Assembly: GCA_949288065.1 (NCBI GenBank)
Contig: CASEIL010000002.1
Coordinates: forward strand, 124,001-188,000
DNA: 64,000 nt
Reading direction: 5' to 3'
DNA from: an uncultured Phascolarctobacterium sp.
GTDB lineage: Bacteria > Bacillota > Negativicutes > Acidaminococcales > Acidaminococcaceae
The translations under genes and the position numbers were made by a program. The notes under the pieces were generated by a model, which saw only the letters and a program-made list of their open reading frames with translations, made no database searches and was not told the origin of the DNA. This document shows positions 38,191 through 43,248 of the stretch, one piece after another; the stretch's first letter is position 1, and the number at the start of each line of letters is the position of its first letter.

Positions 38191-38219
38191 ATTTTATCAA
38201 AATAGCAGCAAAAAGTCAA
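38191..38219 (-). promoter_or_regulatory. secA promoter
   Basis: TTGACT (38214-38219) and TAAAAT (38191-38196) on the minus strand are 17 nt apart. The -35 overlaps the base of the hpf terminator. Confidence 0.7.
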
Positions 38220-38240
38220 AAGCCCGGGAGCTTTGTCCCG
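38217..38240. terminator. Terminator after hpf
   Basis: AAAAGCCCGGGA pairs with TCCCGGGCTTTTTT; T-rich tails occur on both strands. Confidence 0.85.
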
Positions 38241-38266
38241 GGCTTTTTTGTGAAATCAATGTAAAG

Positions 38267-38797
38267 TTATTTTAATTCCGGCTGTAAGAGGCCATAGTTG
38301 CCGTCTTTGCGGCGGTATACAACGTTTACTCCGCCATAGTCGGGGTCATAATATACGAAAAAGTCATGGTCCAGAAGGTTCATTTGCAGGATTGCTTCTT
38401 CAGCCGTCATCGGGTTCATCGAGAACTTCTTGTTCTTGATAATCTTGAATTCTTCTTCAGGCGCCGCTTCTACTTCGGGAGCAGGTACGGGCTCTACAAA
38501 GTTGCTGTATTTACGTTTGGCAAGGCGTGTTTTATATTTATGTACCTGGCGTTCGATTTTTTCTACAACCAAATCAATGGAAGAGTACATGTCTTTCGTG
38601 GTTTCCTGTGCCCTGATTAAAATGCCGCTGGCAGGAACGGTAATTTCAACGATATGGTTGCCTTTTTCAACCTTCAGCACCGCGCTGATGTCGCCGACAG
38701 TTTTAAACTGGCGCGTAATTTTCGTAATTTTCTTTTCCACATACTCTTTGAGCGCCGGAGTTACAACAATGTTCTTTCCTCTTACGTTAACGTTCAT
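38267..38797 (-). CDS. hpf: Ribosome hibernation-promoting factor, long form
   Basis: A 176-residue protein that dimerises 70S ribosomes into inactive 100S particles. The N-terminal HPF domain ('VRGKNIVVTPALKEYVEKKITKITRQF') is joined by an acidic linker to the C-terminal dimerisation domain ('FSMNPMTAEEAILQMNLLDHDFFVYYDPDYGGVNVVYRRKDGNYGLLQPE'). AGGAGGG precedes the ATG. The gene has its own promoter and terminator, and its 5' leader folds into two hairpins. Confidence 0.95.
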   Translation of the reverse strand: MNVNVRGKNIVVTPALKEYVEKKITKITRQFKTVGDISAVLKVEKGNHIVEITVPASGILIRAQETTKDMYSSIDLVVEKIERQVHKYKTRLAKRKYSNFVEPVPAPEVEAAPEEEFKIIKNKKFSMNPMTAEEAILQMNLLDHDFFVYYDPDYGGVNVVYRRKDGNYGLLQPELK

Positions 38798-38963: not shown

Positions 38964-39695
38964 TTATAAAATTTTGGAGAGGAAGCTGCGGGTACGCTCT
39001 TCCTTGGCATGCAAAAAGATGTCGTCCGGCGCGCCCTGCTCTAAAATTTTGCCGCCGTCAACAAACAGCACCCTGTCGCCCACCTCGCGGGCAAAGCCCA
39101 TTTCGTGGGTAACAACAACCATCGTCATGCCTTCGTTGGCAAGGTTTTTCATAACGTCCAGAACCTCTTTAATCATTTCCGGGTCAAGCGCAGAGGTCGG
39201 CTCATCAAACAGCAGCGCTTTCGGCTTCATCGCCAGCGCGCGCGCAATGGCCACGCGCTGCTGCTGCCCGCCGCTGAGCTGGTCAGGGTAGCTGTTAGCC
39301 TTGTCGGAAAGGCCTACCTTGCTCAAAAGTTCCATCGCTGTTTTTTCGGCCTCGCTGCGGCTGATGCCGCGCACTTTCATCGGCGCCAGCACAAGGTTTT
39401 CCAGCACCGTCATGTGCGGGAACAGGTTAAAACGCTGGAACACCATGCCTACTTCCTTGCGCACCTCGTTAATGTTGGCTTCGCCGTCCAGCTTAATGCC
39501 GTCCACCACAATGGTGCCCTCGGTAGGCTCTTCAAGGTAGTTCATGCAGCGCAGCAGGGTGCTTTTGCCGCTGCCGCTGGGCCCAATGATTACCACGACC
39601 TCTTTTTCGGCAATCGTTAAATCAATGCCGTTTAAAACATTCAGGCTGCCGTAATTTTTCTTCAGGCCGGTAATTTTAATCATTTCGCTTGTCAT
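38964..39695 (-). CDS. Polar amino-acid ABC transporter, ATP-binding protein
   Basis: A 243-residue ATPase of the GlnQ/ArtP type. Walker A is 'GPSGSGKST', the signature 'LSGGQQQR', and Walker B '[13 protein letters not shown]'. It overlaps the permease gene by 4 bases. Together with the permease and binding proteins upstream it imports a polar amino acid; specificity cannot be read here. Confidence 0.95.
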
Positions 39696-40348
39696 TTTGT
39701 TTCAAACCTCCGCTCCATCATTCCTACCAGGCGCGCAACCGTAAAGGTCATAATAAGGTAAATTACGGCAACAGCCAGCCAGATTTCAAAAGAAGCGTAG
39801 GTGCGGGCAATAATCAGCTGTCCGCGCCTTGTCAGCTCTTCAAAGCCGATAACGGAAACCAGTGAGGAATCCTTCAGCATGGCAATAAATTCGTTGCCGA
39901 GCGGCGGGATAATGCGTTTAAAGGCCTGCGGCATGATAACATAGCGCATCGTCTGGTACCAGGTCATGCCCAGCGAGCGGCCTGCTTCCATCTGCCCCTT
40001 ATCAATGGACTGGATGCCGGCGCGGAAAATTTCGGCAATGTACGCGCCGCTGTTAATGGAGCACGCGCAGATAGCGGCAAAGAACGGGTCGATACGCTGG
40101 CCGATAACGGTAGGTAGCGCAAAATATACCAGAAATATCTGCACCAAAAGCGGCGTGCCGCGGATAAAATCAACATAGCAGTTAGCGGCATAGCGCACCG
40201 GTTTAATGCTTGCCAGGCGTGCCACGCCGATAATCATACCTATTAAAAGGCCAAAGCCGACGCTTAAAGCGGTAATTTCGATTGTAATACCGGCGCCCGC
40301 CAGAAGAAGCGGTATTGCGTCCTCAATAATTGCAAAATTCAGTTCCAT
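39692..40348 (-). CDS. Polar amino-acid ABC transporter, permease
   Basis: A 218-residue inner-membrane protein with about five helices. It has the family pattern '[13 protein letters not shown]', '[20 protein letters not shown]' and the EAA loop '[35 protein letters not shown]'. It is coupled to the ATPase gene. An intercistronic hairpin separates it from the binding-protein gene. Confidence 0.95.
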
Positions 40349-40380
40349 TAGCCTTAATTCCTTCCAGTAGTTTCAGCAAT

Positions 40381-40424
40381 AAATAAAATACGGGGCCACC
40401 CTCGTTACCGTTAGTGTACCCCGC
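40381..40424 (-). terminator. Intercistronic hairpin between binding protein and permease
   Basis: CGGGG..CAC pairs with GTG..CCCCG, followed on the minus strand by TATTTTATTTATT. Such partial terminators or stabilising hairpins allow more binding protein than permease to be made. Confidence 0.6.
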
Positions 40425-40439
40425 ATTCAGGCTCAATGC

Positions 40440-41219
40440 TTATTTTTTCACTTCACCGAACCAGGTTTTGTAAATCTTGTCATATTCGCCGTCTTTTTTC
40501 AGCTCAGCAAGGGCTTTGTTAATATCTGCCAGCAGTTTGGTGTTGTCTTTTTTAACGGCAATGCCATACTGTTCTGCTTCCATTACGTCGCCAACGGTTT
40601 TAGCAACTTCGCTGCCGCCCTGTGCCAGGTAATAACCGATAACCGGGCTGTCGTTAATTACTGCGTCAACGCCGCCGTTGGTCAGTTCCATAGCGGATTC
40701 GGTATTGGTGTTAAAGAGGGTAACGGTTGCATCTTTTACGCTGTTGGCTTTATCGGCGCCGGTGGTGCCAATCTGTGCAGCAATGCGTTTGCCAGCCAAA
40801 TCGTCGATGCTCTTAATATCGTTGTTGTCTTTTTTAACCATTACAATCAGGCCGGAAGTGTAGTACGGGTCGCTCATGCCTACGGCTTCTTTTCTTTCAT
40901 CGGTAATGCTCATGCCGGCAATGGCAACGTCGATGTTGCCGGTGTTCAGCGCCGGGATAAGAGCGTCAAAGCCCATGTTGGCAATTTCAACCTTGTAGCC
41001 CAGCTTTTTGCCGATAGCGCGGATTAAATCCATATCAAAGCCTGCCAGCTCGTCAGAGCCCTCTTTCTGGAACTCGAACGGTGCAAAAGTCGGTTCGGTT
41101 GCTACGCGCAGAACCTTAGCGGGTTCAGCCTTGGCTTCTTCCTTAGCGCCGCCGCAGCCGGCCACAGCCAGTGCCACAAGCAACATGGCAGACATCAAAA
41201 ACAGTAAATACTTTTTCAT
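40440..41219 (-). CDS. Amino-acid ABC transporter substrate-binding lipoprotein (copy 2)
   Basis: A 259-residue SBP_bac_3-type protein. The signal peptide ends in the lipobox VAGC ('LVALAVAGCGG'), followed by 'VLRVATEPTFAPFEF', 'GFDMDLIRAIGKKLGYKVEI' and 'GMSITDERKEAVGMSDPYYTSG'. ATG 41219 is 8 nt from AGGAGG. It is a close paralogue of the next protein upstream and lies directly before the permease, with its own promoter. Confidence 0.95.
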   Translation of the reverse strand: MKKYLLFLMSAMLLVALAVAGCGGAKEEAKAEPAKVLRVATEPTFAPFEFQKEGSDELAGFDMDLIRAIGKKLGYKVEIANMGFDALIPALNTGNIDVAIAGMSITDERKEAVGMSDPYYTSGLIVMVKKDNNDIKSIDDLAGKRIAAQIGTTGADKANSVKDATVTLFNTNTESAMELTNGGVDAVINDSPVIGYYLAQGGSEVAKTVGDVMEAEQYGIAVKKDNTKLLADINKALAELKKDGEYDKIYKTWFGEVKK

Positions 41220-41269
41220 AAACATAACCTCCTGCTGAATAAATTTGCGTTACTTTCATCTGTTAAAAT

Positions 41270-41298
41270 ATTATATCCCTAAAACAGCGGTTAAGCAA
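41270..41298 (-). promoter_or_regulatory. Promoter between the two binding-protein genes
   Basis: TATAAT (41270-41275) with TTGCTT (41293-41298) at 17-nt spacing on the minus strand. The -35 is weak. Confidence 0.45.
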
Positions 41299-41331
41299 CA
41301 AAAACTTTCAAAAAACCTGCATAAAAAATCA

Positions 41332-42108
41332 TTATTTTGCTTCGCCGAACCATTTATTGTAAATTTTATCAAATTCACCGTTCTGTTTCAGCTCGTTCAA
41401 CGCCTTGTTAATATCGGCAGCCAGCTTATCGTTGCCTTTTTTAACGGCAATACCGTAGTCCTCGGCGTTCAGCACCTCACCAACGGTTTTAGCGTATTCG
41501 CTGCCGCCCTGCGCCAAAAAGTATTTCAGCACCGGCGCGTCGTTAATAACGGCGTCAGCCGCACCGTTTTTCATTTCCAAAACTGCGCTGCCGTTATCGT
41601 TAAACGCAGTAACCTTTGCGCCCTCAACCTTTTCGGCACGGAAAGCGCCGGTAGTGCCAATCTGCACGGCAATGCGCTTGCCTTTTAAATCGTCAATGCT
41701 CTTAATATCGTTGTTGTCCTTCGGCACCATAACCAGTAAGCCGGATTTATAATACGGGTCGGAGAAAATTACCTGCTGTTTGCGCTCTTCGGTAATGCTC
41801 ATGCCTGCCAGCGCCACGTCAATGTTATCAGCCTGCAAGGCAGGGATTAAAGCGTCAAAGCCCATCGCGCTGATTTCAACCTTGTAGCCCAGCTGCTTGC
41901 CGATAGCGCGGATTAAATCCATGTCAAAGCCGGTAAATTCGTCAGAGCCATCAGCCTGCATTTCAAACGGGGCAAACGAAGGCTCCGTGCCCACGCGCAA
42001 AACCTTTGCGCCGCCGTCAGCCGCTTTCTCCTCACTGCCGCCGCAGCCTGCCGTAACAAGCGCCAGCGCCAGCATCGCCGTCATCAATAATGCCAAAAAT
42101 TTTTTCAT
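41332..42108 (-). CDS. Amino-acid ABC transporter substrate-binding lipoprotein (copy 1)
   Basis: A 258-residue paralogue of the downstream binding protein, with lipobox TAGC ('LVTAGCGG') and the same conserved segments ('VLRVGTEPSFAPFEM', 'GFDMDLIRAIGKQLGYKVEI', 'GMSITEERKQQVIFSDPYYKSG'). ATG 42108 follows GGAGGGGG. The two copies differ in their ligand-pocket regions, so they may deliver different amino acids to one permease. Duplication of the binding protein is seen directly; the functional split is inferred. Confidence 0.95.
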   Translation of the reverse strand: MKKFLALLMTAMLALALVTAGCGGSEEKAADGGAKVLRVGTEPSFAPFEMQADGSDEFTGFDMDLIRAIGKQLGYKVEISAMGFDALIPALQADNIDVALAGMSITEERKQQVIFSDPYYKSGLLVMVPKDNNDIKSIDDLKGKRIAVQIGTTGAFRAEKVEGAKVTAFNDNGSAVLEMKNGAADAVINDAPVLKYFLAQGGSEYAKTVGEVLNAEDYGIAVKKGNDKLAADINKALNELKQNGEFDKIYNKWFGEAK

Positions 42109-42164
42109 TGAAAGTACCCCCTCCAAGGTTCTGCCCTAAGGCATTAGTATAATAAAATATATTA

Positions 42165-42211
42165 TAAAACTAAAAGCCCTTCTGCACAAGCAAAATTATG
42201 CAAAAAAGGCT
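42165..42211 (-). terminator. Terminator of the structured RNA gene
   Basis: AGCC..TTTTGCA (42199-42211) pairs with TGCAGAAGGGCT (42175-42186) on the minus strand with G-U pairs, followed by TTTAGTTTT. Confidence 0.6.
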
Positions 42212-42433
42212 AATTTTTATAAAATAAAGCAACTCAGCTGACCTGGTCTTCGCCCCCACACCCGCCTGCTGGAGGGTTCGCTCCTAAGCCTTCTGCTCCC
42301 CACTACTACCCCTCTCGCCTTTTGCGGCAGGACTTACCTCTAAGCTGCGCCGTGCTCACAGCAAATTTTTGCTGCTTACGTGGGTCGTTTTGCCCGCAAC
42401 TGGCATCGACTTTCAACCACAGACCTGAGCTGC
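42212..42433 (-). ncRNA. Structured small RNA gene, family not identified (6S-like layout)
   Basis: No coding frame explains this segment. A promoter places the 5' end at about G42433, where GCAGCTCAG (42425-42433) can pair with CTGAGTTGC (42229-42237) to close the molecule at both ends, giving about 205 nt. Inner elements include GGTCT/AGACC next to the closing stem, a CAGCAAA/TTTGCTG hairpin (about 42357-42373), and CGG..CAG/CTG..CCG around CTTA-GAGG-TAAG. A terminator follows at 42165-42211. Size and end-closing stem recall 6S RNA, but I cannot match conserved 6S positions, and RNase P, tmRNA and SRP signatures are missing. Confidence 0.5.
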
Positions 42434-42439
42434 ATTATA

Positions 42440-42467
42440 ATTATATCCGCTTACGCGATTTTTGCAA
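42440..42467 (-). promoter_or_regulatory. Promoter of the structured RNA gene
   Basis: TTGCAA (42462-42467) and TATAAT (42440-42445) on the minus strand are 16 nt apart; a second TATAAT follows immediately at 42434-42439. The predicted start coincides with the first base of the closing stem. Confidence 0.6.
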
Positions 42468-42577: not shown

Positions 42578-43186
42578 ATGATCGCTTTACCCCAAATACT
42601 TGATTTTCCCAAAGAAAATAACATACGCGAAATTTGCAACTCGCTGCTGACGCTGCTGCAAAAAAAGGATACGGGTTTATACATGCACAGCCAGCAGGTT
42701 GCCAACTACTCCGCCTGCATAGCGGCTAAACTGGGCCTGCCCGCGGCAGAAATTGCCTCCATAAAAAGCGCGGCGCTGCTGCACGATATCGGGCATCTTT
42801 CCGTGCCTAACGCGATTTTAAAAAAATCGCCCTATTTAAGCACGCGCGAAATGGCAACCTATAAACGCCATTGCCAGGCCGGCGCCAGCATTCTGGAAAA
42901 CATACCGGAGTTTACGCATATTATCGACATTATTTATTCTCACCACGAAAAGTGGGACGGCACCGGTTACCCCAAGCGCTTAAAAGGCGTAAACATACCG
43001 CTGGGGGCGCGCATAATTGCCGTGGCCAACTATTACGACCGCATAGTAAACCCCTGCACCCATTACTGGCAAAAAACGCCGCTGGAAGCCATTAAGGAAA
43101 TGAAGGACAAGGCCGGCACCGACTTTGACCCCAATGTTGTAAGGGCGTTTTTAGAATCCATCATCCCCTGCAAGGTGAAGGAATAA
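42578..43186 (+). CDS. HD-GYP domain phosphohydrolase
   Basis: A 202-residue cytosolic protein consisting of an HD-GYP domain without an attached sensor. The metal ligands are in 'MHSQQVANYSACIA', 'ALLHDIGHLSVP', 'KRHCQAGASIL' and 'HHEKWDGTGYPKRLKG', the last being the GYP signature. HD-GYP enzymes hydrolyse cyclic di-GMP or related cyclic dinucleotides. ATG 42578 follows AGGATGG; the frame open from 42548 lacks a site. It is transcribed alone, divergently from the structured RNA gene. Confidence 0.88.
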   Translation: MIALPQILDFPKENNIREICNSLLTLLQKKDTGLYMHSQQVANYSACIAAKLGLPAAEIASIKSAALLHDIGHLSVPNAILKKSPYLSTREMATYKRHCQAGASILENIPEFTHIIDIIYSHHEKWDGTGYPKRLKGVNIPLGARIIAVANYYDRIVNPCTHYWQKTPLEAIKEMKDKAGTDFDPNVVRAFLESIIPCKVKE

Positions 43187-43198
43187 TAAACAAAAATT

Positions 43199-43248
43199 AA
43201 AGCACCATACCAAAGAGTTTTAGCTCTAAAGTATGGTGCTTTTTTATT
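43199..43248. terminator. Bidirectional terminator between HD-GYP and rhodanese genes
   Basis: AGCACCATAC (43201-43210) pairs with GTATGGTGCT (43231-43240), enclosing AGAG/CTCT, with TTTTTT on the plus strand and an A/T-rich flank on the other. Confidence 0.85.

Follow-up and report, generated by a model that had tools for sequence, protein, structure and literature searches.

The raiA RNA, since renamed ModT and still typed as 'Cis-reg; riboswitch' in Rfam (RF03072), is a very widespread class, and the published clues to its function (sporulation, aggregation and c-di-GMP) come from spore-forming clostridia. In C. difficile its abundance rivals that of rRNA. Clostridial ModT is abundant, stable and growth-phase-dependent, and can be complemented in trans (PMC11706538). 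It influences both sporulation and the growth transition, and in C. difficile also c-di-GMP (PMC11706538). The authors of that study argue, from the non-spore-formers, for a broader core function (PMC11706538). A 7-bp pseudoknot, pk-1, that joins the P3 loop to the P5-P6 junction has been described by cryo-EM (PMC11751092), and the neighbours reported in the literature are comFC and raiA. A full-text search found no paper on the raiA motif in Negativicutes, with Soares et al. (PNAS 2024) and Weinberg et al. 2017 lying outside the reach of that search.

The window examined here is the whole 64,000 nt stretch of contig CASEIL010000002.1, from an uncultured Phascolarctobacterium sp. (assembly GCA_949288065.1). 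An Rfam scan of the complete window returned a single match at gathering level, RF03072 at 42433-42229, which covers positions 1-209 of the 209-position model (score 200.5 bits, cut-off 101.3, E = 1.5e-51). The RNA is present as a single copy in the host genome. A preliminary description had proposed a discrete structured RNA gene here, and this is borne out by the Rfam match, the predicted promoter and terminator, and covariation. The length of about 205 nt, the boundaries and the closing stem that it gave agree exactly with the match, and raiA was among the families that it listed for a covariance search. Judged from its sequence, the RNA is a full-length, typical and well-formed copy of a catalogued class, already known and not new. 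It resembles raiA/ModT of C. acetobutylicum and C. difficile in the full-length model, closing stem, pk-1, core and size, and shares with ModT a predicted sigma-A-type promoter. The predicted terminator likewise has a counterpart proposed just downstream of C. difficile ModT. Features of the locus are listed in Table 1.

Table 1. Features of the raiA RNA locus, with window positions and the basis for each assignment.
Feature	Position	Strand	Basis
raiA gene, ribosome hibernation factor, then secA	38267..38797	-	PF02482, E 1.6e-26
Amino-acid ABC transporter operon (two SBP_bac_3, permease, ATPase)	38964..42126	-	Pfam; order recurs in many class families
Intrinsic terminator hairpin (predicted), U-rich tail to about 42167	42177..42208	-	Sequence, folding
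raiA (ModT) RNA, 205 nt	42229..42433	-	RF03072 match and covariation
Closing stem P1, 3' arm	42229..42237	-	MFE fold, Rfam structure, covariation
GAGGTAAGTCC, conserved raiA-RNA segment	42330..42340	-	Alignment to Rfam consensus and relatives
Pseudoknot pk-1 3' strand, residues 85-91	42343..42349	-	Rfam pairs, relatives
Pseudoknot pk-1 5' strand, P3 loop, residues 33-39	42395..42401	-	Rfam pairs, relatives
Closing stem P1, 5' arm	42425..42433	-	MFE fold, Rfam structure, covariation
Sigma-70-type promoter (predicted), -35 TTGCAA 42467-42462, -10 TATAAT 42445-42440	42440..42467	-	10/12 consensus matches
Stand-alone HD-GYP-type protein, divergent neighbour	42581..43186	+	Pfam HD_5, E 4e-41; HD and HHE-W-DG-G motifs conserved

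The outer part of the closing stem P1, 9 bp in length, is present in both the MFE fold and the Rfam structure. Covariation was assessed in an alignment of 51 Negativicutes sequences spanning the class, using the Rfam pairs with the inner three exchanged for P3. In this alignment 94% of cells pair and two-sided changes are found at 27 of the 54 pairs; the structure is partly derived from the family model. Two-sided cells number 375, whereas shuffling gives 107 ± 16 and sliding the partners gives no more than 61; cells are sequences counted and not evolutionary events. Compensatory changes in the closing stem, which the preliminary description had singled out for a search in Negativicutes, occur at 11 of the 12 outer P1 pairs (the 9 bp and the next three). 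The published pk-1 corresponds, on our own reading, to Rfam pairs 33-39 with 85-91; these 7 pairs form in 98.6% of cells in relatives, with two-sided changes at two of them. By contrast, the RNA taken by itself has a folding energy that does not stand out from chance (z = -1.1) and is not informative as evidence, so that the case for an RNA above chance rests on the covariance-model match and the covariation among relatives.

Two Rfam pairs, 54-80 and 55-79, are non-standard in the window RNA (C-C and G-G) and fail in 50/50 and 39/50 distinct sequences, respectively. The RF03072 structure is therefore doubtful in that part, and an updated model has been favoured for the same region (PMC11706538).

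The promoter boxes, TTGCAA and TATAAT separated by 16 nt, place the predicted start at 42433, 7 nt past the -10 box, which is the first base of P1, as had been proposed from the sequence. Boxes resembling a -10 element lie at the same position in nearly all relatives. Downstream, the predicted terminator hairpin is followed by CTTTTAGTTT, and folding of the 3' flank is stronger than in shuffled sequence (z = -3.3), in keeping with the terminator claimed earlier. The claim that no coding frame accounts for the RNA also stands, since just one ORF of at least 40 aa overlaps it, and this TTG frame of 93 aa lies on the opposite strand. We consider it highly probable that this is the raiA/ModT RNA of Phascolarctobacterium, started from a sigma-A-type promoter, terminated, acting in trans and serving a job other than sporulation or c-di-GMP control. 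Transcription from the predicted vegetative promoter would begin at the initial base of P1; the transcript would adopt the raiA core fold, pseudoknot pk-1 included, and stop at the predicted intrinsic terminator. With a predicted promoter and terminator of its own, the RNA would be made independently and act in trans, and would not serve the transporter mRNA as a switch. Homology with clostridia suggests that it would be very abundant while cells grow exponentially and would act as they pass into stationary phase.

The locus differs from that of clostridial raiA/ModT in carrying a divergent HD-GYP gene upstream and an ABC transporter ahead of the raiA gene. The latter is on the same strand as the RNA and 3.4 kb downstream, past the transporter operon. 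In many families the same order is found on one strand, namely the RNA, one or more solute-binding proteins, permease, ATPase and raiA, and secA follows raiA wherever the examined stretch extends that far. Since comFC and raiA are the reported neighbours, the transporter appears to be an insertion characteristic of Negativicutes. No comFC gene was identified beside the RNA in the window; proximity to comFC and raiA is common, not universal, for RF03072. Divergent HD-GYP genes lie upstream of the RNA in loci of three families (f1, f28 and f31), in some of which comFC-like genes, recognized by sequence and weak Pfam matches, are found beyond the HD-GYP gene. In one locus, L062, FliS is upstream of the RNA.

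Within the window, the HD-GYP gene shares the upstream intergenic region of the RNA. It encodes the sole HD_5 protein found per genome in the host and three other members of the genus; these four genomes are without GGDEF, and in each of them the gene and the raiA RNA are divergently oriented. Two tandem paralogous genes for amino-acid-binding lipoproteins, about 70% identical, occupy 40440-42126 on the minus strand. A strong GC-rich hairpin and T run at about 38205-38250 (minus strand), in the gap between raiA and secA, appears terminator-like by eye.

A second architecture was found in other genomes, where an ORF for zf_Tbcl/zf_Tbcl_2 on the same strand starts 33-66 nt past the RNA. It was seen in 47 genomes, which are the best zf matches and not a random sample, with a spacing of 33-41 nt in 44 and 62-66 nt in 3. 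No terminator was found between the RNA and the zf_Tbcl ORF in any of 20 representative loci (0.4 expected by shuffling), whereas 10 of 20 other loci have one after the RNA (about 1 expected), though the searched spacers were unequal, at 47 nt and 92 nt, respectively. In those 47 genomes the RNA thus resembles a 5' leader of the zf_Tbcl gene. The window belongs with the other loci, in which no zf_Tbcl ORF follows the RNA in this way.

This leader-like arrangement lends some weight to a reading in which the window RNA, in line with its Rfam type label, is a cis-acting, riboswitch-like leader of the amino-acid ABC transporter operon, which in many families indeed lies downstream in the same orientation. 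We nevertheless regard that as improbable. A predicted terminator separates the RNA from the transporter, as in several relatives, so that control in cis would need read-through; some families have the RNA with no transporter nearby, and the clostridial RNA works in trans (PMC11706538).

The possibility that the copy has decayed and is no longer transcribed arises from its location next to a rearrangement junction. Homology to RNA loci of the same genus ends at about 43174, and homology to rnr-smpB-rhodanese loci of the genus begins at about 43230-43242, the two being in separate places in relatives. The junction at 43174-43240 would be either a lineage rearrangement or an assembly chimera. 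Decay is very unlikely, as the score of the RNA is among the best in the class, its core is intact, and a predicted promoter and terminator are present. The suggestion in the preliminary description of an undescribed RNA, or of a divergent form of 6S or RNase P RNA, drew on a size and end-pairing similar to 6S RNA and on 11 nt that look like a block of RNase P, and can practically be discarded given that RF03072 alone reaches the gathering score, at full length and about twice the threshold. No match to 6S or RNase P RNA reached the Rfam gathering threshold. The RNase P-like segment, GAGGTAAGTCC, is conserved as part of the raiA consensus, and its likeness to RNase P is therefore coincidental. 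The host RNase R is 93-94% identical to that of Phascolarctobacterium species.

RF03072 scored above its cut-off in 177 of the 250 genomes sampled from the class, which we infer to be Negativicutes. The losses cluster in a single large family, f15, probably Selenomonadaceae, where the RNA was found in 0 of the 60 genomes counted and 59 have GGDEF in the absence of the RNA. When 28 genomes without the RNA, at least 20 of which belong to f15, were searched again for divergent copies with laxer filters, only scattered matches below 16 bits were obtained, and weak matches at that threshold were also seen in 4 control genomes. An exact 29-nt DNA pattern had no match in the named genomes searched. 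Five loci of f15 (L108-L112) retain the zf_Tbcl gene with a promoter-like TTGN...TATA-type motif (by eye), and about 100 nt of unrelated short leader is found where the RNA would be. The transporter through raiA is present in three of the five; one further stretch showed the transporter and ended before raiA, and in the remaining locus neither is nearby.

RNA, Spo0A and GGDEF profile results were cross-tabulated over the same 250 genomes. The RNA is present without Spo0A and without any GGDEF in 77 of them (52 at least 98% complete), these counts being genomes and not independent events. The effects on sporulation and c-di-GMP seen in clostridia would therefore not be the universal job, and we infer that the conserved job of raiA RNA is something other than control of either. 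Phascolarctobacterium differs from clostridial ModT hosts in this respect. No Spo0A, GGDEF, EAL, PilZ or c-di-GMP-I riboswitch was detectable in the host genome, which is 87.6% complete; here as in the cross-tabulation, HMM searches may miss degenerate domains. A member of the genus given as 100% complete likewise has no Spo0A, GGDEF, PilZ or riboswitch. Neither the c-di-GMP-I riboswitch nor PilZ was found in nine RNA-positive genomes lacking GGDEF, four of them from the host's genus, whereas each of two comparison genomes with GGDEF contains the two of them.

The role that fits best is a general one as cells leave growth; any connection to translation or RNA turnover is no more than a guess. 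The chances are about even for a wider proposal, that raiA RNA has a universal function independent of sporulation and c-di-GMP and, in other Negativicutes, is also the 5' leader of a zf_Tbcl operon from which it would be released via processing at an extended P1. Independence is suggested because dozens of Negativicutes that have small genomes and neither Spo0A nor GGDEF retain the RNA, and because the GGDEF-rich family f15 lost just the RNA from an otherwise largely kept locus. Both Phascolarctobacterium, which has the RNA without those pathways, and the RNA-less f15 serve as natural experiments with which the core function can be narrowed down. It is these comparative side results, based on gene content and gene order, that carry the value of the analysis.

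Flanks of the zf_Tbcl loci often extend P1 outward, TAAGAACC with GGTYYTTA (by eye). The homologue of zf_Tbcl in the host genome lies elsewhere, away from the RNA. In loci L062-L081, L084 and L098, the zf_Tbcl/zf_Tbcl_2 gene is highly conserved, encodes 96-100 aa, lies mostly 33-41 nt past the RNA and is preceded by a conserved AAGGTGAGGGGAT-like ribosome-binding site.
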